Source of the DNA: JBFMHD01 sp040752395 [NCBI: Candidatus Hydrogenedentota bacterium]
GTDB taxonomy: Bacteria > JBFMHD01
NCBI GenBank assembly: GCA_040752395.1
Contig: JBFMHD010000062.1
Location: 1 to 13,333, forward strand
Direction of reading: 5' to 3'
Length of the DNA stretch: 13,333 bases
Position 1 is the first letter of the stretch, and each line of letters starts with the position of its first letter. The notes beneath the pieces were generated by a model. That model saw nothing but the letters and a program-made list of their open reading frames with translations, searched no databases and was not told where the DNA came from. Shown one piece after another: positions 3,159-13,297 of this stretch. The position numbers were made by a program, and so were the translations under genes.

Positions 3159-3250
3159 AGCTGATAAGTATTGCAAATTGCAAATTTATTTGCCTGCTAC
3201 GGGTCTTTTGACCCTCACTACTTAATTTTTGAATTTTTCAATTTTTTAAA

Positions 3251-3316
3251 TCTTTCAATCTTTGTGCCTCTGCCTGCCTTCCGCGGCGGAGTGCGGTGCA
3301 GGCAGGTGCCTCTTAT
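3251..3316. repeat. Dispersed intergenic repeat, copy 2, interrupted
   Basis: TCTTTCAATCTTTGTGCCTC is identical to the copy at 6614-6633. It is then interrupted by a GC-rich palindrome (see 3264-3312), after which GTGCCTC and a TTATTTA-like tail resume. The spacer between the divergent DUF115 and nitroreductase genes holds this repeat and promoter-like AT-rich sequence, and no gene. Confidence 0.6.
3264..3312. mobile_element. GC-rich palindromic mini-element with 7-base flanking duplication
   Basis: A 35-base GC-rich block (3271-3305) sits inside a dispersed repeat copy and is bracketed by GTGCCTC at 3264-3270 and 3306-3312. Its ends pair: CTGCCTGC (3270-3277) is complementary to GCAGGCAG (3298-3305), around an interior containing CCGCGGCGG. 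The copy at 6614-6640 has a single GTGCCTC at the same place and continues with a similar TTTATTTA tail, so it looks like the empty site. The base composition is very unlike the surroundings. It resembles a REP/MITE-like palindrome that inserted with target duplication. A caveat is that other repeat copies naturally carry two TTTGTGCC units, so the duplication could be older than the insertion. Confidence 0.5.
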
Positions 3317-4622: not shown

Positions 4623-5084
4623 ATGTGTGGGTGTAGATTAAATAGGCTACAAAAAAAGATTCTTCAATTACTTAATGATGAATTGGAATTAACACCCAGG
4701 CCATTTGATAGATATGCGTCTATTTTAAAGATAAAACCCGCAATATTTATAAAAAATATTAGAGAATTAGTAAAAAAGGGATATATTAGAAGAATTGGTT
4801 TTGTTATTCAACATCAAAAGTCAGGTTATAAATATAATGCTATGCTTGTTTTTAGAATATCGCAAAAAAATATTGATAAAACAGGTAAAATACTATCAAA
4901 ATATCATTTCGTAACACACTGTTACCAAAGAAGGACTACAAAAGATTGGCCGTATAACCTCTATGCGATGTTACATAGCAGGACAAAAAAAGGGTTTAGA
5001 GAAATGGTTGATATGATATTAAAAAAAATTAGCTATGAAGAATACAAACTTCTTGTCACAAAAAAGGATCTAAAAATTTTATGA
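4623..5084 (+). CDS. AhbA/AhbB-type siroheme decarboxylase subunit (Lrp/AsnC-related)
   Basis: A 153-residue protein of the NirD/G/H/L-AhbA/B family. An N-terminal Lrp-like helix-turn-helix spans about residues 5-62 (LQKKILQLLNDE, then RELVKKGYIRRIGFVI). A C-terminal ferredoxin-like (RAM-like) domain follows, with the family motif VTHCYQR at 97-103 and WPYNLYAMLH at 109-118. The Ahb enzymes remove the acetate carboxyls at C12 and C18 of siroheme, giving didecarboxysiroheme on the alternative route to heme; the related Nir proteins act in heme d1 synthesis. They normally work as a two-subunit complex, but only one is encoded here, so the partner must lie elsewhere or this is a homomeric form. 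hemL follows 193 bases later, supporting a tetrapyrrole role. The start has AAAGG six bases upstream. AhbA versus AhbB is not resolved. Confidence 0.82.
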   Translation: MCGCRLNRLQKKILQLLNDELELTPRPFDRYASILKIKPAIFIKNIRELVKKGYIRRIGFVIQHQKSGYKYNAMLVFRISQKNIDKTGKILSKYHFVTHCYQRRTTKDWPYNLYAMLHSRTKKGFREMVDMILKKISYEEYKLLVTKKDLKIL

Positions 5085-5143
5085 AGCCATCCAGACAAAA
5101 ATATGATGTAAAACAGATATTTAAAATTTCAAGAGTATTATGA
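5081..5143 (+). other. Tiny ORF overlapping the decarboxylase stop
   Basis: ATGA at 5081-5084 joins the stop of the decarboxylase gene to the start of a 20-codon frame (MKPSRQKYDVKQ, then IFKISRVL). The overlap is what one expects between operon genes. It may be the first codons of a lost downstream pathway gene, or chance. No family is recognised. Confidence 0.25.
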
Positions 5144-5209
5144 GCTCAAGTTTAACTAAGATCAAGAGTTGTAAAATGAAATTCCAAGCACTGAATCCTG
5201 AATTCTAAA

Positions 5210-5260
5210 CAAATTCAAAATTCGAATGATATAAATCAAAAACGAGTTGTTTTGAATTTG
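5210..5260. repeat. Intergenic repeat with 11-base inverted arms upstream of hemL
   Basis: CAAATTCAAAA (5210-5220) and TTTTGAATTTG (5250-5260) are perfect inverse complements around a 29-base loop that includes ATTCGAAT. The low-complexity AATTC/TTCGAA words are typical of dispersed spacer repeats in some uncultivated bacterial genomes. The arm ends 17 bases before the hemL start, so a leader stem is also possible. Confidence 0.45.
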
Positions 5261-5277
5261 GGGTAAAATCCAGTATT

Positions 5278-6588
5278 ATGAGAGAGTTAAAGAAATCTGA
5301 ACGTATTTTTGTTCAATCTACTGAATCCTTCCCTGGTGGTGTAAATTCGCCTGTTCGGTCGTTTAATGCTGTAAAATCCATGCCACCGGTTATCTATAAA
5401 GCTAAAGGACCCTATGTTTATGATGTAGATGGAAATAAATATATTGATTATGTCTGTTCATTTGGACCAATGATACTTGGGCATCTTGATAAATCAGTTG
5501 TTAAAAGTATTAATAAAATACTATTAAAAGGAATGAGTTTTGGAGCTATAACACCTTATGAACTTGAGCTTGCTAAATTAGTAAGAGAGGCTTTCCCTTC
5601 AATGGAAAGAATGAGATTCGTAAATTCAGGTACAGAAGCCACTATGTCAGCTATCAGACTTGCACGTGGTTATACAGGTAAAGACTATATAATTAAATTT
5701 GAAGGGTGTTATCATGGTCACAGTGACAGCCTTCTTGTTAAAGCAGGTTCAGGCTCGATGACTTTTAGTATACCATCGAGTCATGGTGTGCCATTTGATC
5801 TTGCCAGATACACACTCACAGCTCAGTTTAATGATATCTCAAGTGTCGAAAGATTGTTTCATCAATTTAAAAATAAAATTGCATGTATTATCGTTGAGCC
5901 GATCCCTGCTAATATGGGTGTTATTAAACCTGATATAAATTTTCTGGTATTTCTTAGACAGATTACAAAAGAGAACAAATCTTTATTAATCTTTGATGAG
6001 GTCATTACAGGTTTCAGACTCTGCTTTGGCGGCGCACAAAAATTCTATAAGATCGAGCCTGATATTACAACCCTCGGTAAAATACTTGGAGGCGGTCTAC
6101 CGATAGGATGTTATGGTGGTAAAAAATATATTATGGAAAAAATCGCGCCAGAAGGACCAGTCTATCAGGCAGGAACATTATCAGGGAACCCGATAGTAAT
6201 GGCTTCTGGTATTGCTACGCTTACAAAACTTAAAGATAAAAAAATATATAAAATTCTTGAAAGCCGGGGAAGATTACTTGAAAAAAATATTATAAAAACC
6301 TGTAAAAGATACAGGATACCTGTATCTTTTAACAGGGTTGGGTCTCTCTTTACACTATTTTTTAATGATAGACCTGTTATTGATTATAAGACAGCTTTAA
6401 AATCAGATACAAATCTTTATGCTGAATTTTTTAGAATGCTGCTTAAGAAAGGGGTTTATTTAGCTCCGAGTCAATTTGAAGCAGGGTTCATTTCCCTGGC
6501 ACATACCGACTCTATTATTAACAAAACCTGTAAAATATTCAATGAAGTTATTTTGATTCTTAATTCTAAATTACAAGTTGCCAATTAA
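5278..6588 (+). CDS. hemL: Glutamate-1-semialdehyde 2,1-aminomutase
   Basis: A PLP-dependent class III aminotransferase-fold enzyme that converts glutamate-1-semialdehyde to 5-aminolevulinate, the entry to tetrapyrroles by the C5 route. The 436 residues equal the usual length. Visible landmarks: FPGGVNSPVR at 18-27 (substrate-gating N-terminus), NSGTEA at 116-121 (PLP phosphate), CYHGHSD at 144-150, IFDEVITGFR at 238-247 (Asp contacts the PLP ring nitrogen), and TLGKILGGGLPIGCYGG, in which Lys268 is the Schiff-base lysine. AGTLSGNP is typical of HemL and separates it from other aminotransferases. No good SD is seen: GGGG lies 15 bases from the ATG. An inverted repeat precedes the gene. The neighbouring siroheme-decarboxylase-like gene suggests siroheme or heme synthesis as the destination. 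The last few codons run into AT-rich spacer-like sequence. Confidence 0.95.
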   Translation: MRELKKSERIFVQSTESFPGGVNSPVRSFNAVKSMPPVIYKAKGPYVYDVDGNKYIDYVCSFGPMILGHLDKSVVKSINKILLKGMSFGAITPYELELAKLVREAFPSMERMRFVNSGTEATMSAIRLARGYTGKDYIIKFEGCYHGHSDSLLVKAGSGSMTFSIPSSHGVPFDLARYTLTAQFNDISSVERLFHQFKNKIACIIVEPIPANMGVIKPDINFLVFLRQITKENKSLLIFDEVITGFRLCFGGAQKFYKIEPDITTLGKILGGGLPIGCYGGKKYIMEKIAPEGPVYQAGTLSGNPIVMASGIATLTKLKDKKIYKILESRGRLLEKNIIKTCKRYRIPVSFNRVGSLFTLFFNDRPVIDYKTALKSDTNLYAEFFRMLLKKGVYLAPSQFEAGFISLAHTDSIINKTCKIFNEVILILNSKLQVAN

Positions 6589-6613
6589 TAATTCTTACTT
6601 TTTGCCTCCCCAA

Positions 6614-6662
6614 TCTTTCAATCTTTGTGCCTCTTTATTTAGAAGCAAGAGGCAAGATAACG
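6614..6662. repeat. Dispersed intergenic repeat, copy 3 (uninterrupted)
   Basis: TCTTTCAATCTTTGTGCCTC, then a TTTATTTAG linker, then AAGCAAGAGGCAAGATAACG. The first block equals the one at 3251-3270. The second recurs as AAGCAAGAAGCAAGATAACA near 13196-13216 and, inverted, near 223-240. This copy serves as the empty-site reference for the palindrome inserted at 3264-3312. Confidence 0.6.
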
Positions 6663-6714: not shown

Positions 6715-6993
6715 ATGGATAGAAAAGATGAGTTAAAGGAATTGGCTTATAAGATTGCACGACTCCTTCGAGAAAAATACAAAGTTACTAAGGTTTTCCT
6801 TATTGGCTCACTGGTAACAGGACTTGTGCACGAAAGGTCAGATATAGATATTGTCGTAGAAGGGTTGGCACCTGAACTTTATATAAAGGCATTAACAGAG
6901 GCGTATGATATTCTCCCGGGCGAAGTTGAGCTAAATTTAGTCCCATTTGAAGATGCCTTCCCTTCATTGAAAGAAAAGACATTACGTGACTAA
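6715..6993 (+). CDS. MntA-like minimal nucleotidyltransferase (MNT) protein, orphan
   Basis: A 92-residue polymerase-beta-like nucleotidyltransferase domain. The MntA signature GSX10DXD is exact: Gly31-Ser32, then Asp43-Ile-Asp45 within SDIDIVVEG. NLVPFEDAFPSLKEK follows at 74-88; many relatives have Asp where Asn74 stands, which might affect the third metal ligand. In MntA-HepT modules, MntA neutralises the HEPN RNase HepT by adding AMP to it. No HepT gene exists on either side: 58 bases downstream the HD-GYP gene ends convergently, and upstream is a repeat. The protein ends LKEKTLRD and TAA. After the stop the same frame reads TEIVIK and stops again, which could be the lost last residues. 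The SD is AAGGA seven bases before the ATG. It may be a solitary antitoxin or an unrelated MNT enzyme. Confidence 0.82.
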   Translation: MDRKDELKELAYKIARLLREKYKVTKVFLIGSLVTGLVHERSDIDIVVEGLAPELYIKALTEAYDILPGEVELNLVPFEDAFPSLKEKTLRD

Positions 6994-7051: not shown

Positions 7052-8464
7052 TCAGTATCCTTCAGCTAATACCTGCATAAAAACGTCTACTACTTTAGGG
7101 TCGAACTGGGTACCAGAATTCTTTTGTATCTCGTATACAGCTTCTTCACGTGTCATAATAGTTGTTCTATAAGGTCTTGTAGAAATTATTGCTTGAAACG
7201 CATCACAGACCGAAAGTATCCTTGAGAGTAGCGGTATTTTCTCGCCTGCTACTTTGTTAGGATAACCGCTGCCATCAAAATGCTCATGGTGATGTTCTAC
7301 AACATCAAGAATTTTTTTACGTAACTCAGCTTTCTGAATTATCTCGATTGATAATAACGGATGTGTTTGAATGCTCTTTATTTCGATATCAGTCAATGGT
7401 GATTCTTTATGCAAAATACTATCCGGGATACCGAGTTCACCTATATCATGGAGATATGCGGCCAGTGTAAGAATATATTTATCTTCAACTGAGAGCCCGA
7501 GTCTATCAGCGATCTTTAATGCAAGTTTTTCAACACCTTCAGCATGACCACGCGTGTACGGGTGCCAGATCTCCCAGATGTCTGCCAGAGCTTTTACTGA
7601 TTTTTTATAGTGTTCCCGTAATATCTCATATTCCTGAAATAGTCTGTAACAGACCCCGATCTCTTTACCAAATGAGATAAGAAAATTTTTAATTGGAAGA
7701 GGTATCGAAGTTTCATCAACTATCAATAATGTTACAAATCCTATAAAACTTTTTTCAAAAACAACAGGTATCCAGATTGAAATATTATAATCCTTAAAAA
7801 CAGGTAAGAAATTGTGCTCTATTTTTTTTCTATAATTTATTATAATATCTTCTTTATTTGATAGCGCTTCTATGAAATCAGGTGGCGGGATAAAAGGTAA
7901 TGGTTTGTCTTTGTATGCCACCCACCATACAGGGTCTAATTTTTCTTTATCATACAGATAAATAATCAATTCATCAACCTTAAGAACAGATTCTAATTTG
8001 TGTTTAATAGTTTCGTAGAAAAGATTAATATTACAAAAGATAGCCGGGTTTTTTGATATCTCCTGGGAAAATGATAAAGTTGTTGCTTCTTTAATCTCAA
8101 AAAGAGCATCAACAAAAGTTTTGCGTTTTGTTACTATTTCTTCATCAAGACTGCGCAAATCCTTTAATCGCGAGAGAGCCTGTTTATAAGATTGCGTAAT
8201 ATTATCTGTTTCAGTTGAACCTGTATTAGCAACAGCTTCAAACTCGCCTTTCTCAATATTTTTTATGTTTTCTTCAAGTGCCCTGACAGGTTTGACAAAA
8301 TGTTTTACAATATAAATAGCTATAAAACCTGATAAAGCAACACCCACAAATATTAATCCAAGTCTCACGTAGGAATTCTCTGAAAAAGTAAGGGATAATA
8401 AAGAGAAAGAAACAGTAAAGATTGTAAATAGAAAGACTATGATAAAGATTATTTTTATCTTCAT
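7052..8464 (-). CDS. Membrane HD-GYP c-di-GMP phosphodiesterase with GAF-like sensor
   Basis: Counted from the ATG at 8462-8464 the protein has 470 residues. Two membrane helices (about 4-24 and 34-54) are followed by a HAMP-like linker (KPVRALEENIKNIEKGEFE), a GAF-like region (about 140-285) and a C-terminal HD-GYP domain. The HD-GYP landmarks are HPYTRGHAEGVEKLA, the metal-binding HD at 339-340 within LHDIGELGIPD, THPLLS, HHHEHFDGSGYP (391-402, with an intact GYP) and CDAFQAIISTRPYR. HDIGE replaces the usual HDIGK, a known kind of variation. Such enzymes hydrolyse c-di-GMP to GMP at the inner membrane in response to a signal. The longer frame from the ATG at 8494 is unlikely because it translates straight through a strong AGGAGG SD (8475-8480) that sits ten bases before the chosen ATG. 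It probably opposes the GGDEF protein encoded next upstream. Confidence 0.92.
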   Translation of the reverse strand: MKIKIIFIIVFLFTIFTVSFSLLSLTFSENSYVRLGLIFVGVALSGFIAIYIVKHFVKPVRALEENIKNIEKGEFEAVANTGSTETDNITQSYKQALSRLKDLRSLDEEIVTKRKTFVDALFEIKEATTLSFSQEISKNPAIFCNINLFYETIKHKLESVLKVDELIIYLYDKEKLDPVWWVAYKDKPLPFIPPPDFIEALSNKEDIIINYRKKIEHNFLPVFKDYNISIWIPVVFEKSFIGFVTLLIVDETSIPLPIKNFLISFGKEIGVCYRLFQEYEILREHYKKSVKALADIWEIWHPYTRGHAEGVEKLALKIADRLGLSVEDKYILTLAAYLHDIGELGIPDSILHKESPLTDIEIKSIQTHPLLSIEIIQKAELRKKILDVVEHHHEHFDGSGYPNKVAGEKIPLLSRILSVCDAFQAIISTRPYRTTIMTREEAVYEIQKNSGTQFDPKVVDVFMQVLAEGY

Positions 8465-8485
8465 ACAATGTAAACCTCCTTCCTC

Positions 8486-8510
8486 GAAAAACATTGTTAA
8501 CTTTAATAAT
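8486..8510 (-). promoter_or_regulatory. Upstream block shared with the Lys-rich protein gene
   Basis: On the minus strand ATTATTA, six variable bases and ACAATGTTTTTC precede the SD of the HD-GYP gene. Nearly the same block (ATTATTA, five bases, ACAATGTTTTTC) occurs at 13164-13187 before the SD of the 79-residue gene. Both are followed on the far side by the 34-base repeat. It could be a shared promoter/leader or an edge of the repeat. Confidence 0.45.
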
Positions 8511-8513
8511 TCG

Positions 8514-8547
8514 GGCTACAGGCTACGGACTACAGCCGGCTGGAGCC
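8514..8547. repeat. 34-base perfect direct repeat, copy A
   Basis: Thirty-four bases starting GGCTACAGGCTACGGACTAC and ending CGGCTGGAGCC are identical to 13241-13274. The sequence is GC-richer than its surroundings, contains two offset GGCTAC units, and lies in a spacer. The following bases degrade into GAAGCCTGAAGCC-type words, as at the other copy. Confidence 0.75.
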
Positions 8548-8576
8548 CGAAGCCTGAAGCCAACATATCATCTTTA

Positions 8577-8608
8577 GTTTTTCATCCTTTGTGCCTTTGT
8601 GCCTCTTT
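8577..8608. repeat. Dispersed intergenic repeat, copy 4
   Basis: CATCCTTTGTGCC followed by TTTGTGCCTCTTTT. It shares the doubled TTTGTGCC arrangement with the copy at 183-255. It sits between the 34-base repeat and the 35-residue ORF. Confidence 0.5.
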
Positions 8609-8617
8609 TCCTCCCCT

Positions 8618-8725
8618 TTAAAGTGTCTCACGTTTCAGGGGAGCAGTATATTTGGTATTCCAAAACTCTAATGCCATACGAAAGATGCTCATAAGTTTGT
8701 TCTTAAGTAATGAGTGTTTTTTCAT
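8618..8725 (-). CDS. 35-residue small protein overlapping the GGDEF gene stop
   Basis: The ATG (8723-8725) overlaps the TGA of the GGDEF gene in the classical ATGA arrangement, and the frame runs 35 codons to a TAA at 8618-8620. The product is basic with an amphipathic, aromatic centre: MKKHSLLKNKLMSIF, then RMALEFWNTKY, then TAPLKRETL. It has no Cys and no membrane helix. It has no SD of its own, so it would be translated by coupling. The sequence looks coding rather than repeat-derived, and the stop falls just before spacer repeats begin. I recognise no family. It could be a small partner of the GGDEF protein, or the 5' remainder of a longer lost gene. Confidence 0.5.
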   Translation of the reverse strand: MKKHSLLKNKLMSIFRMALEFWNTKYTAPLKRETL

Positions 8726-10221
8726 CCATATGCTTTTAATATCTCTACTCTATCCCGACCATTAATCTTTGCTTTATACAAAGCTGCATCAGTATTATCA
8801 ATCAGTCCAAGAAAACCCATTCCAGCATAATATTCTGCTATTCCCGCGCTTAGTGTCACATTAAACTCATTTGTCTTATAATTAAATTTTTCTCTTTTAA
8901 TTCTATCTCTTATAGATTCTGCTATATTTAAACTCTCTGAAATATCCTCATCCGTAATCACAGCTATCTCCTCACCGCCATATCTGCAAGGAATAGATCC
9001 TCTATCTCTGCAAACATCCTTTATCACGCAACCAACTCTTTTTAACACCTCATCACCTATGGTATGCCCCATTGTATCATTTATTTTTTTGAAATAATCT
9101 ATGTCTATTAAAATCAGTGAAAGTTTATTAATATTTTCTTTATTATCAATTTTTTCTGTTTTCTCTCTAATAATTCTGTCAAAATAGCCTCTGTTATATA
9201 ATTCTGTCAGCTGATCTTTAATAGCCTGATTATAAAGTATAGCTTTAGATATCCTTGACTTAAAATATTCTTCAATCATCTCGATCCAACCCTCTGGTAT
9301 ATCCCCTCGTTCCTCGCCCTTATTAATGCAAATTATGTTATATTCATTATCTACCTCCCAGTTATAAGCAGGGAAACGTTCTTTCATATAATCTATAAAA
9401 TATTGAATAATTGTAGCCGGCTCTTCTTCAAGTTCGCCTAATTTAATAAACAAATCTGATGATATAAGTAAACTTCTCATAGCATCTTTGTTTATACTCA
9501 TTCTTTTTAATACAGCAGGGCAACCAAACTGAATATTACATACTTCACACCATTCTGATTCATTTGTTTCGAACCTGTTCATACTAAAGCATTCATCGAG
9601 ATTCTCAATTATTCTGTTTATAGTATCTGTATCGTATAAATCATCCTTTCTGATTGATATGATACTTCTGGTGTATAAATTGTAGCGGGTAAAACTTTGT
9701 ATCTCTATACCGAGTAACAGATTAATAAGATATCTTATGAAACTCACCTCAAGTTTTAATAATTTTTCTACTTCTTTTGTTTTTCTTATTCTATGTTCAA
9801 TAACATCAAAAGTATCTGTTCGGTCCAATCTTTGAAGATAATAATACATTACATAATTATTTTTATTAATGCTCAGGTATCGGTTCTGTAAATACGCTTC
9901 TTTTTCTGTATCAATAGAATAATATAACCATTCAAGCATCTCCAGGGCTTTATTCCCAAATTCCTTCTCCATTTTAATATTATCGAAAACAGATTTATTC
10001 CAATTATTACGAAGCAATGATTTTAATCTATTAAGACTTCTATCTTCATTATCAACAGAGAAAAAATCACCGATGGTTTTAATTATGGATTTATATTGCG
10101 CCAGATAATATCCTGTTTCTTTATCTTTATCTTTAAAAAGCTTGTCCTTGCATACTATATTGAACCTGTATGGGCAGAGATAAAATATCGCCATATCGTG
10201 TGGATTAACATTTAATAACAT
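8722..10221 (-). CDS. Diguanylate cyclase with N-terminal AddB/Cas4-like iron-sulfur nuclease-fold domain
   Basis: 499 residues in two halves. The C-terminal GGDEF domain (about 335-497) looks active: DQLTELYNRGYF, LIDIDYFKKINDTMGH, GGEEI at 415-419, SAGIAEY and DAALYKAKINGRDRV. The inhibitory RxxD position reads DRGS, so the canonical product-inhibition site is absent. The N-terminal half (about 8-238) has the layout of a PD-(D/E)XK domain of the AddB/Cas4/Dna2 iron-sulfur type: FYLCPYRF with Cys16 at the start, a helical insert, QRLDRTDTFDVIEHRIRKT (130-148), a long helix, and WCEVCNIQFGCPA with Cys225-x2-Cys228-x5-Cys234. The cysteine spacing is that of the [4Fe-4S] site in those nucleases. 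The position of the catalytic lysine (iDYK) is EHR here, so nuclease activity is doubtful. A linker of about 100 residues joins the halves. The gene starts one base after the membrane coiled-coil gene. No membrane segment is seen. Confidence 0.85.
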   Translation of the reverse strand: MLLNVNPHDMAIFYLCPYRFNIVCKDKLFKDKDKETGYYLAQYKSIIKTIGDFFSVDNEDRSLNRLKSLLRNNWNKSVFDNIKMEKEFGNKALEMLEWLYYSIDTEKEAYLQNRYLSINKNNYVMYYYLQRLDRTDTFDVIEHRIRKTKEVEKLLKLEVSFIRYLINLLLGIEIQSFTRYNLYTRSIISIRKDDLYDTDTINRIIENLDECFSMNRFETNESEWCEVCNIQFGCPAVLKRMSINKDAMRSLLISSDLFIKLGELEEEPATIIQYFIDYMKERFPAYNWEVDNEYNIICINKGEERGDIPEGWIEMIEEYFKSRISKAILYNQAIKDQLTELYNRGYFDRIIREKTEKIDNKENINKLSLILIDIDYFKKINDTMGHTIGDEVLKRVGCVIKDVCRDRGSIPCRYGGEEIAVITDEDISESLNIAESIRDRIKREKFNYKTNEFNVTLSAGIAEYYAGMGFLGLIDNTDAALYKAKINGRDRVEILKAYG

Positions 10222-10222
10222 A

Positions 10223-11407
10223 TTAAAAATTTACTTTCTTTTTATCCTGCGGTTTCATAAGCCTGTGATAAAAATATCTATAGACATCATCTTTTAGACT
10301 AACAATCAGTCTTATCATTGGTTGATAACCCACGACTTTCAAAAGCGGGTTTATTTTATCCTCGTCAGACACATCATATATAATAGGTTTGTCAATACCC
10401 TGAGCTATAATATAGTAATTATCGCAATTTATTTCATTTAAGATACAATCAGAAATAAATATTCTATGCATCCCAAATTTATCTATCAATTTTCTCAAAC
10501 TGAAATCAGTTTTAACGAACAAACTCAATCCATTATCAAGACACTGTATATTCATCTCAAAATTATCTTTTATTATCAATTTCATATCAGATTCAATGTA
10601 ATACAGATTGACGTCCATTTTCAAAATCGTCTCAATATATTCATTATCTAAAAGCGAGATAATATCTTTGTAACATAATATAATTTTTTTATTATCAAGC
10701 GATATCTTTTCAAGATAAGAAAGATAATATCTATAAAACTCTGGTACTGGATTAGTTATTAATATGCTATCCTGTACACCATTTAACATCCTTTTAATTA
10801 ATATCTTATAATTATCTTCATCTATTATCTCCAGATTTTTATATTCTTTTATATCCCCAAAAATGCCATCAATTTTTTCTTTAATATTTTTTAATTCAGC
10901 AATGGTTTCGCTGTGACTTAATATTTTTTCTGTTTTTATTCTTTCTTTCTGTATCCTGTTCCATTCTTCTTCTATCAGTTCCCGTTGTTTTGATAGTTCA
11001 TACTTAAGTTTTTCTCTTGCATCTTTTTCAATGTTTAAGCGAAATTCATCGAATTTAACTCGCCATCTGTTTTCGGTCTCCTGCAGCTTATTTCTGTTTT
11101 CTTCCTGAAGATTTTTATTTTTAATCTCTAATCCCATATTTATCCCTTTCAATTTATTAACTTCTTCATATAACTCCATATTACTTTTTCGTAATCTTTT
11201 AAGGATATGTGAAAATATAATTATACCCGATAATAAGAAAACAAGTATAATAGCGAGAACAGGGATACCATACTTAACAGTAAATGTTTTAGGGTCAAGC
11301 AGCTCAAGATACAATAAAACCTCTATAACTATTACTGGGAAAGAAAGCAATATCCCAAGAATTATTATATTAAATATTCTATCAAAACTACTTAATTCCC
11401 TTTGCAT
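10223..11407 (-). CDS. Membrane-anchored coiled-coil protein with PLD/TrmB-like C-terminal domain (uncharacterised)
   Basis: A 394-residue protein not assigned to a named family. Two membrane helices (about 12-35 and 46-69) are followed by a long charged coiled coil (about 70-195, Glu/Lys/Arg-rich) and a mixed alpha/beta domain (about 198-385). The last part (DSILITNPVPEFYRYYLSYL, then NKKIILCYKD, then MDVNLYYIESDMKLIIKDN) alternates hydrophobic strands with helices. This resembles the half-domain of phospholipase-D-like or TrmB C-terminal regulatory modules, but no HxK catalytic motif is present. The GGDEF gene begins one base after its stop, so the two products probably act together. No SD precedes the ATG. 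A strong promoter ends only nine bases upstream, implying an almost leaderless transcript. The topology suggests that coil and C-terminal domain are on the cytoplasmic side. Confidence 0.6.
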   Translation of the reverse strand: MQRELSSFDRIFNIIILGILLSFPVIVIEVLLYLELLDPKTFTVKYGIPVLAIILVFLLSGIIIFSHILKRLRKSNMELYEEVNKLKGINMGLEIKNKNLQEENRNKLQETENRWRVKFDEFRLNIEKDAREKLKYELSKQRELIEEEWNRIQKERIKTEKILSHSETIAELKNIKEKIDGIFGDIKEYKNLEIIDEDNYKILIKRMLNGVQDSILITNPVPEFYRYYLSYLEKISLDNKKIILCYKDIISLLDNEYIETILKMDVNLYYIESDMKLIIKDNFEMNIQCLDNGLSLFVKTDFSLRKLIDKFGMHRIFISDCILNEINCDNYYIIAQGIDKPIIYDVSDEDKINPLLKVVGYQPMIRLIVSLKDDVYRYFYHRLMKPQDKKKVNF

Positions 11408-11461: not shown

Positions 11462-12898
11462 TCAACCTTCTTTTTCATCACTGCGCCGAAAAGATAGTAA
11501 ATCTGAAAGAAAATAACAAAACAAACCAGAGATTAAAAATACGACCCAGATTATTATCCATCGCTCATTTTTAAAATTTGAAACATCAATAATCCTTGTA
11601 AACGGGAATTCATTCAAAAATGCTATATCCAGATAAAATATCCGAACAAGACCTGAGAGTATTATCCCGCTTATGAGATTTAAATATGGTATAAAAACTA
11701 AGAGTTCAAAGATTGTGCTTAAACATAATATAATACTAAAGAATGGTACTATAATTATATTTGATATAAAAGAGCCTAAATATGTGATACTGCCAAAGTG
11801 GTATGCTATGATCGGAGTTGAGGCAAGCTGTGCAGGAATAGTAACAGAAATTATTCCTGCTAACCAGTCGGATAAAACTTTCTTCAAAATATCATTAAAT
11901 AATCTAACATATAACAAAATAAATAACGTCACTGCAAATGTTAATTGAAACCCGACAGAAAATAATTCCAGTGGTGAGAATAAAAGGATTACAAGCCCTG
12001 AGAACGATAGAGCTTGAAATTCGTCTCTTCTTTTATAAAAAATCATTCCTATCAAATAAAATATTATCATCAATCCAGCTCTTTCTGCGCTTGTGCAAAA
12101 TCCTGATTGAAATAAAAACAGAATAACACCTATTATAGAAATCACTGCTCTTTTTCTTAAATCATATACAAATCCAGATATCCCAACAAAAAGAGCACAA
12201 ATTATTATCGTAACATTCAATCCTGATAGGGCAAGAAGATGCGTCAGCCCGGTCTCTTTAAAAACAATCGTGTCATCATACACGAATTCCCTCATCCCGA
12301 AAAGTATAGCTGATACGAACCCACCTTCTTTTTCTCCAATACAGGTAATTATCTTCCCAGATAAAAATAATCTTAATCTATCATATAATAAAGGCTGTCC
12401 TATCTCTTCTGTCTTATACGTTCTTGCTTTTAAAAAACTATTGAATATCCTTTCTTTAGAAAAGACACAGTACAAATTATATTTTCTATAGGGTTTTATA
12501 CTGTGCGTTACATCTTCAATTAAAATTTTGTGAGTAAATTTTTGAGTCTTAATAAATTTATTTTTGTTATCCAGTGGTTCTGCATAACCCTGAATCAATA
12601 AATAACCTTTATCAAATAGATAATTTTTTTCATCAATCAGTCTTTGGTTATAAATATTATATAAACTATTCCCGGTAAAAAAGAGAATAATAAATAATAT
12701 AAACGAAATAATTCTCAATAAATATACTTTTTTATTTTTACTTATCAATTTTAAAAATATAAATATTAAGGTAAGAACGATAAAAGAGATGAAATAACCC
12801 CAGTATCTATTCAATAATATTCCACTGATCATTCCGATAAAAGCGAATAATAAAGGTCTGCACAAAAATTCATCAAAATGTTTAACAATTCTACTCAC
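11462..12898 (-). CDS. comEC: ComEC/Rec2-family DNA-uptake channel, short form without metallo-beta-lactamase domain
   Basis: ComEC forms the inner-membrane channel that brings single-stranded DNA into the cytosol during natural transformation. Here 478 residues cover the N-terminal DUF4131 region (helices about 15-80, then an OB-fold part with LLIQGYAEPLD at 100-110) and the polytopic Competence domain. The latter carries the hallmark GLTHLLALSGLNV (217-229) and many hydrophobic helices to about 470. The C-terminal metallo-beta-lactamase-like domain of long forms (about 750 residues) is absent: the protein ends after the last helix with SFRRSDEKEG. Short forms are known in several lineages. 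The start is GTG (12896-12898); the nearby ATG at 12898-12900 is in another frame. No clear SD is seen. The gene lies 13 bases after the Lys-rich small gene. A downstream promoter lets the next genes be expressed independently. Confidence 0.9.
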   Translation of the reverse strand: MSRIVKHFDEFLCRPLLFAFIGMISGILLNRYWGYFISFIVLTLIFIFLKLISKNKKVYLLRIISFILFIILFFTGNSLYNIYNQRLIDEKNYLFDKGYLLIQGYAEPLDNKNKFIKTQKFTHKILIEDVTHSIKPYRKYNLYCVFSKERIFNSFLKARTYKTEEIGQPLLYDRLRLFLSGKIITCIGEKEGGFVSAILFGMREFVYDDTIVFKETGLTHLLALSGLNVTIIICALFVGISGFVYDLRKRAVISIIGVILFLFQSGFCTSAERAGLMIIFYLIGMIFYKRRDEFQALSFSGLVILLFSPLELFSVGFQLTFAVTLFILLYVRLFNDILKKVLSDWLAGIISVTIPAQLASTPIIAYHFGSITYLGSFISNIIIVPFFSIILCLSTIFELLVFIPYLNLISGIILSGLVRIFYLDIAFLNEFPFTRIIDVSNFKNERWIIIWVVFLISGLFCYFLSDLLSFRRSDEKEG

Positions 12899-13240: not shown

Positions 13241-13274
13241 GGCTACAGGCTACGGACTACAGCCGGCTGGAGCC
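13241..13274. repeat. 34-base perfect direct repeat, copy B
   Basis: Identical to 8514-8547 and in the same orientation. It is followed by AAAAGCCAAAAGCC words and the heptamer array. It is preceded at 13196-13216 by AAGCAAGAAGCAAGATAACA, the second block of repeat copy 3. Confidence 0.75.
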
Positions 13275-13297
13275 AAAAGCCAAAAGCCTGCTGAAAA

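Follow-up and report, generated by a model that had tools for sequence, protein, structure and literature searches.

A Predicted Diguanylate Cyclase Fused to a Probably Inactive Iron–Sulfur-Type Nuclease Domain in a Candidatus Hydrogenedentota Bacterium

The 13,333-nucleotide stretch of DNA analyzed here (‘the window’; contig JBFMHD010000062.1 of a Candidatus Hydrogenedentota bacterium) carries on its reverse strand an open reading frame, positions 8722–10221, that starts with ATG and encodes a protein of 499 residues. This protein, referred to as the fusion, joins a degenerate iron–sulfur (Fe-S)-type PD-(D/E)XK nuclease domain to a GGDEF diguanylate cyclase domain. Its parts are as follows, all on the reverse strand:

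8722–10221, fusion protein, 499 residues: degenerate Fe-S-type PD-(D/E)XK domain, then linker, then GGDEF domain
9502–10221, residues 1–240: predicted Cas4/AddB/AdnA-type PD-(D/E)XK domain with four cluster-type cysteines (profile match and AlphaFold2 model)
10174–10176, C16: putative first cluster cysteine (alignment to relatives)
10081–10083, I47: replaces the active-site His (alignment to relatives)
9832–9834, Q130: replaces the catalytic Asp of the iDRiD motif (alignment to relatives)
9790–9798, E142-H143-R144: replaces (D/E)-x-K (alignment to relatives)
9520–9549, C225-x2-C228-x5-C234: the other three putative cluster cysteines (alignment to relatives)
9232–9501, residues 241–330: linker region, low-confidence helices and two short strands
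8749–9222, residues 334–491: GGDEF diguanylate cyclase domain (Pfam PF00990)
8965–8979, GGEEI (residues 415–419): cyclase signature loop, aligned with GGEEF of PleD

Homology and predicted fold of the two domains

The C-terminal domain matches the GGDEF family of Pfam at residues 334–491 (PF00990, expectation value E = 1.3e-35) as well as TIGR00254 (E = 7.3e-42), and DosC, PleD, and WspR are among its top matches in the PDB. The signature loop lies in the context RYGGEEI (residues 413–419), and the D-x-D..F-K-x-x-N-D nucleotide/metal site is present, DIDYFKKINDTMGH aligning with DIDFFKKINDTFGH of PleD. The RxxD product-inhibition site, a common rather than a defining feature, is absent: CRDRGSIPCRYGGEEI stands where PleD has RA-IDLPCRYGGEEF. 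An earlier interpretation of this DNA made before any database search (the sequence-only reading) had described both the GGEEI-bearing domain and the missing inhibition site, and both descriptions hold. The fusion protein probably makes cyclic di-GMP (c-di-GMP). The linker that precedes this domain is poorly defined, with a single, sub-cut-off Pfam match (E = 0.069) and ten-residue means of the predicted local distance difference test (pLDDT) between 39 and 71 in the AlphaFold2 model described below.

Family libraries are far less informative for the N-terminal half. In Pfam all matches stayed below cut-off, namely zf-met (E = 0.046, covering the cysteine triad), NOP19 (E = 0.1), and zf-C2H2_14 (E = 0.62); the NCBIfam and PADLOC libraries gave no family, and PHROG gave one unnamed family (E = 0.037). 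A single-sequence search of the PDB listed two VCP-like ATPase chains (E = 0.2 and 0.51), which we judged to be chance matches.

Searches of genomes with the single sequence, i.e., without a profile, nevertheless matched Fe-S PD-(D/E)XK domains in four phyla. In the phylum of genome G009, relatives were found in 21 of 149 genomes, the best (locus L095) with E = 2.6e-9 and 25% identity over residues 6–236; 15 of the 21 matches were fetched, and the domain was present in 15/15. Two of these frames, L095 and L100, were inspected by eye and are helicase-nucleases, L095 being of UvrD type also by Pfam. The matches in the phylum of G003 (6/39 genomes, E ≤ 0.01) are tandem nuclease repeats, and two other phyla yielded short RecB/Cas4-like proteins in 2/54 and 2/132 genomes. 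Pfam identifies these relatives clearly: PDDEXK_1 matched five of five (L087, L091, L093, L095, and the viral L116) with E from 7.6e-26 to 7.6e-96, the four cellular ones passing the cut-offs of both PDDEXK_1 and Cas4 and L116 that of PDDEXK_1. The tandem proteins are also of interest in their own right, as L084–L089 (Riflebacteria-type by label) encode proteins of head-to-tail Fe-S PD-(D/E)XK domains, with up to four whole repeats in the part of a single frame that was fetched.

Profiles made from the relatives, with the fusion left out, recognize its N-terminal domain. The first, built from 13 domains, scored residues 11–235 at 38.4 bits (E = 1.5e-10 in a set of 2,287 reading frames), its seeds having been cut with a pattern that contains the cysteines. 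Since several of these seeds had been picked by way of the fusion itself, a second profile was built from eight target-independent repeats; it gave the fusion 17.8 bits (E = 2.8e-4), ranked right below the nuclease relatives, with the next non-relative frame among the 2,287 at E = 0.44. A wider profile of 13 rows (alignment A2) gave 55.7 bits (E = 7.9e-16); these rows were chosen from 35 cellular segments, and their uniform His, Asp, Asp, and Lys (13/13) describe the chosen rows. Residues 1–329 scored 58.2 bits against a PD-(D/E)XK profile when intact and 37.4 bits with the four cysteines masked. Of 2,000 shuffled versions in which these cysteines stayed in place, 1,922 obtained a score, and none exceeded 12.6 bits. 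Profile searches of solved chains, with profiles that include the fusion, agree in pointing to AdnAB, ACE1 (an Argonaute-associated Cas4 protein), and Cas4 (4ic1).

The predicted structure points the same way. An AlphaFold2 model computed without an alignment was discarded (pLDDT 32.7), and one built with 17 viral nuclease homologues (alignment A6) reached a pLDDT of 76 and a predicted template modeling score of 0.67; within residues 1–240, ten-residue block means are 80–96 in 19 of 24 blocks and 60–78 in the other five. The best solved match by VIA-align is AdnA (Z = 17.7, root-mean-square deviation 4.2, 226 residues aligned, model range 1–237), followed, among the best 50 entries, by AddB (Z = 14.8), RecE (13.6), and ACE1 (13.3), and further down by Cas4 chains (7.5–12.8), Dna2 (12.7), and EXO5 (12.5). 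Foldseek also ranks AdnA first (E = 1.4e-6). The predicted fold gives strong support to the PD-(D/E)XK assignment, short of independent proof. Together with the target-free profile, it supports the identification of residues 1–240 as a Cas4/AddB/AdnA-type PD-(D/E)XK domain, in line with the sequence-only reading, which had placed the domain among the AddB/Cas4-type Fe-S nucleases and had proposed the comparison of folds that now returns AdnA and AddB at the top and Cas4, Dna2, and EXO5 lower.

Putative cluster ligands and a degenerate active site

AddB, Cas4, and Dna2 bind a [4Fe-4S] cluster through cysteines spaced C...C-x2-C-x5-C. The fusion has ten cysteines (residues 16, 24, 211, 225, 228, 234, 298, 398, 404, and 412), among which C16 and C225-x2-C228-x5-C234 reproduce this spacing at exactly the positions first reported. 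To place them, we used 35 cellular domain segments (34 distinct, one with unknown residues), cut by a profile seeded with the cysteine pattern. The columns of C16, C225, and C228 are cysteine in 35/35 segments and that of C234 in 34/35, the exception being a row that ends at a contig end. In alignment A6 the other 17 rows, all viral, have cysteine opposite C16 in 17/17, C225 in 17/17, C228 in 16/17, and C234 in 6/17, the rows being trimmed near the profile end and some of them offset by one column. A6 comprises 17 of 24 non-redundant viral domains; the full-length L135, the partial L142, and five short domains that are similar were excluded.

The catalytic residues are distributed differently. 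Opposite Q130 all 35 cellular segments have Asp, and opposite R144 all 35 have Lys; opposite I47, 31 have His, and opposite E142, 31 have Asp. The 17 viral rows of A6 have His in 17, Asp in 16 (Glu in L141), Asp or Glu of the (D/E)xK motif in 17, and Lys in 16 (Arg in L141). In the fusion, the His has become I47, the Asp Q130, and the Lys R144, with E142 permitted in (D/E)xK; the segment reads IEHR at residues 141–144, its last three letters being the EHR already noted from the sequence. Aspartate D133 was considered as the catalytic Asp and rejected, as HMMER and three MAFFT alignments all put Q130 in that column; D133 instead aligns with the second iDRiD aspartate, present in 34/35 segments. 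By alignment, the fusion has kept the presumptive cluster ligands and lost three catalytic residues. The earlier description of the domain as ‘likely dead’ gains from this, as the losses at I47 and Q130 are additions to it, and remains based on one sequence. Likewise, the cysteines that it singled out are conserved in nuclease-domain relatives, with no orthologue of the whole fusion found in which to follow them.

The idea that the catalytic set is universal in the relatives was rejected, as four of the 35 segments lack the His and the Asp of D-x-K. These four are one degenerate repeat each in L085–L088; their cysteines are still in place, as are their first Asp and their Lys. They show that partial catalytic loss with cysteines kept has occurred elsewhere as well. 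A separate case is the Cas4-like protein at positions 1495–2238 of L141, a 137-kb viral contig, in which Glu replaces the catalytic Asp and Arg replaces the Lys while the four cysteines remain; it is possibly another dead Fe-S nuclease.

Neighboring genes and the search for further examples

The fusion is the third of four genes that follow one another on the reverse strand, the other three being:

11462–12898, reverse strand: comEC-like gene (Competence family, Pfam E = 1e-41), 54 nucleotides upstream of the 394-residue gene
10223–11407, reverse strand: gene for a 394-residue protein, its stop codon 1 nucleotide before the ATG of the fusion
7052–8494, reverse strand: HD-GYP-type protein, candidate c-di-GMP phosphodiesterase (Pfam HD_5, E = 1e-38), 227 nucleotides downstream of the fusion

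The order is comEC-like gene, 54 nucleotides, 394-residue gene, 1 nucleotide, fusion, 227 nucleotides, HD-GYP-type gene. Coupling of the fusion to the 394-residue gene is likely because of the 1-nucleotide gap. A promoter-like site lies in the gap after the comEC-like gene; since such sites exceed chance only somewhat in the window (39 found against 28.2 expected, standard deviation 4.7), co-transcription with comEC is a guess. By eye, the 394-residue protein has a hydrophobic start and a coiled-coil-like middle; all curated families fell below cut-off for it, and residues 44–150 gave a weak match to an Rz-spanin-like PHROG (E = 4.1e-4).

Elsewhere in the window, a siroheme-decarboxylase-like gene (positions 4623–5084) stands directly before a gene named hemL-like by eye, the pair spanning 4623–6588 on the forward strand; similar genes likewise just precede a hemL-like gene in L007, L030, and L050. 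In a tree of the hemL-like gene, which resembles those for glutamate-semialdehyde aminotransferase, the window fell into no supported group. A small nucleotidyltransferase-like protein, weakly similar to the MntA antitoxin (E = 8.6e-5, below cut-off), is encoded at 6715–6993 on the forward strand. Two intergenic copies of a 48-nucleotide direct repeat, 92% identical, occupy 8514–8561 and 13241–13288, and the word CTTTGTGCC recurs at four intergenic places (178–234, 3238–3286, 6609–6649, and 8573–8613).

The fusion itself was seen once. Besides the four genome sets with domain matches described above, five had none: 0/16 (E ≤ 0.01), 0/246, 0/249, 0/57 (a phylum counted twice), and 0/386 (E ≤ 1e-4). 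Matches in two more sets were rejected as chance, namely 3/193 (E ≤ 0.01), which are short, two with internal stops and one in an ATPase-like frame by eye, and 1/247 (E ≤ 0.001), in an ArgC-like frame by eye. Exact peptide patterns run against the genome and viral contigs found no close relatives, and tblastn of plasmids and phages gave nothing at E = 0.1. A search for GGDEF in all collected loci up to L143, those from genome searches extending about 1.5 kb past the match, found it in the window, L029, and L047 only, the latter two having entered the collection via hemL.

The literature is equally silent, within the reach of the searches. The sequence-only reading had known of no described diguanylate cyclase with this input module, and none appeared among the titles and abstract starts of the matches listed. 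A review of c-di-GMP sensors (PMC8846402) contains in its main text no word that starts with iron-sulfur, Fe-S, nuclease, or DNA damage. Two other associations that came up differ from the fusion in the text consulted: the kinship between the Cas10 palm domain and GGDEF (PMC3150331) and a GGDEF gene beside a repeat array (PMC10910872). Within the reach of these searches, we regard the input module as new on a known enzyme class and seen once.

Comparison with known systems places the fusion between several of them. With the nuclease domains of AdnA and AddB it shares the predicted fold (Z = 17.7 and 14.8), the order of motifs, and the four cluster-type cysteines; AdnA and AddB belong to helicase-nucleases of double-strand-break repair, whereas the fusion has no helicase, has lost the His, Asp, and Lys, and has gained a GGDEF domain. 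Closest by sequence are the UvrD-Cas4 fusions of the pfam12705 branch (PMC5704561), represented by L095 (25% identity, PDDEXK_1 plus UvrD); the fetched domains retain D..D-x-K and L095 has a helicase, whereas the partner here is a cyclase. Cas4 and solo-Cas4 proteins share the predicted fold and the cysteines (4ic1, 8d3l, 7mi4), but PMC5704561 infers that family to consist entirely of active nucleases, and the domain of the fusion should be inactive. The fusion partners of Cas4 described there are helicases and Cas1. Exaptation of a dead Cas4 domain has a parallel in TP1, the Cas4-derived capsid protein of virus TTV1, which has no cluster (PMC4625639), whereas the fusion retains the cluster cysteines and its partner is an enzyme. 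Finally, diguanylate cyclases that respond to redox or oxygen through hemerythrin, globin, or flavin-PAS modules (PMC8846402, Table 3) have in common a GGDEF domain and a cofactor-binding sensor, but no word beginning with iron-sulfur, Fe-S, or nuclease occurs in the main text of that review.

A nuclease fold as a possible input to c-di-GMP synthesis

Most likely, the fusion is a diguanylate cyclase under the control of an exapted nuclease domain that bears a cluster and does not cut. We tentatively favor a reading, drawn from the alignments and the model, in which the Cas4/AddB/AdnA-type Fe-S DNA-end nuclease domain acts as a DNA- or cluster-responsive input; the context, with a comEC-like gene upstream and an HD-GYP gene downstream, was counted in its favor. 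The four cysteines would bind a [4Fe-4S] cluster, which would fasten one end of the domain to the other, as the cluster does in AddB and Dna2. The domain would no longer cut DNA and would either still bind single-stranded DNA or a DNA end, or lose this binding once the cluster is oxidized or missing. The change would be relayed by the linker of 90 residues to GGDEF domains, whose pairing is required for c-di-GMP synthesis, and the cluster-clasped N-terminal domain could hold or release that pairing. In general, GGDEF domains work in pairs (PMC7825114), and the DNA tunnel of DNA2 is shaped by the cluster, without which DNA binding is reduced (PMC7311471).

Such a protein would in effect play for c-di-GMP the part of DisA, a diadenylate cyclase controlled by DNA structure. 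The domains of DisA are unrelated to those of the fusion, and DisA makes c-di-AMP rather than c-di-GMP, so the likeness would be one of working principle only: a nucleotide cyclase joined to a DNA-binding module, with control by DNA as the putative common element. In DisA, c-di-AMP synthesis is suppressed at DNA damage sites or on bound DNA structures (PMC6547438 and PMC8227628). We infer the sensor role of the N-terminal domain, and also what it senses. In a narrower, DNA-gated version, the domain would grip DNA ends or single strands that stem from breaks, phage, or ComEC uptake, and switch c-di-GMP synthesis; taken alone, this version is possible yet doubtful.

Several points weigh against the favored interpretation. 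The usual last letter of the cyclase signature is F, from which the I of GGEEI departs. At E up to 10, neither Pfam PDDEXK_1 (PF12705) nor Cas4 (PF01930) matches the domain, and the AlphaFold2 model is tied to the homology call, because the rows of its alignment are themselves PD-(D/E)XK proteins. The Foldseek template modeling score to AdnA is moderate, 0.51 by query length, with a root-mean-square deviation of 4.9. Residues 1–240 are neutral in charge (36 Lys plus Arg, 36 Asp plus Glu, isoelectric point 6.8), which speaks mildly against DNA binding. No second fusion turned up in 1,825 genome searches with residues 1–329 (fewer distinct genomes), and with no orthologue found, the catalytic loss is seen in one sequence. 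In human DNA2, moreover, the cluster has a structural role and is not needed for the redox response (PMC7311471).

The closest rival makes the protein a redox or iron sensor, in which the N-terminal cysteine and the C-terminal triad form a clasp that opens when the cluster is oxidized or lost, and the cyclase is thereby switched, with no role for DNA. Selection for the cluster rather than for catalysis would be expected to leave this pattern of four cysteines kept and three catalytic residues lost, and for this reason such a reading comes close to a DNA reading in likelihood. The main text of PMC8846402 also describes c-di-GMP networks that sense redox or oxygen by heme, hemerythrin, flavin, or disulfides, and the siroheme-decarboxylase-like gene may suggest an anaerobe. 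Two things count against it: the DNA2 precedent, in which the redox response does not need the cluster, and the retention of an entire PD-(D/E)XK fold, superfluous for a bare cluster sensor. On balance, we consider it unlikely. Less probable again is a scaffold for docking or dimerization, in which the dead domain binds, for example, the product of the 394-residue gene, and this partner brings the real signal. The 1-nucleotide gap, the look, by eye, of a membrane-anchored product, and the neutral charge of residues 1–240 would all suit it, as would the precedent of an inactivated Cas4 turned into a capsid protein in the archaeal virus TTV1; however, that protein has no cluster (PMC4625639), whereas the fusion keeps four cysteines, and no direct link connects the products of the fusion and the 394-residue gene.

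We give very little credence to a surviving nuclease with an unusual site of E142/R144 and D133, in which c-di-GMP regulates cutting or the nuclease domain regulates the cyclase. Glu is permitted in (D/E)xK, the lost Asp is three residues away from D133, and the viral L141 protein likewise has Glu for Asp and Arg for Lys, but the alignments assign the catalytic Asp column to Q130 rather than D133, and the His and Lys are lost too. An artefact, either an assembly chimera or a decaying gene, seems just as improbable. Although the fusion was seen once, its frame is open over 499 codons, its content of guanine plus cytosine is 31% against 32% for the window, the linker is in frame, and conserved cysteines and motifs lie on both sides of it.

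Should DNA ends, redox, or iron be sensed, a DNA-repair module would join the inputs of c-di-GMP, in parallel to DisA. The domain would also be an Fe-S nuclease fold exapted for signaling with its cluster ligands retained and its cutting residues gone; the role of the cluster would then be separable from catalysis, and the debated function of such clusters would become directly testable. Should the cyclase be DNA-gated, damage to DNA or the arrival of DNA would serve the bacterium as a cue for its lifestyle. By means of this protein, the cell may choose a lifestyle in response to DNA ends, redox, or iron.
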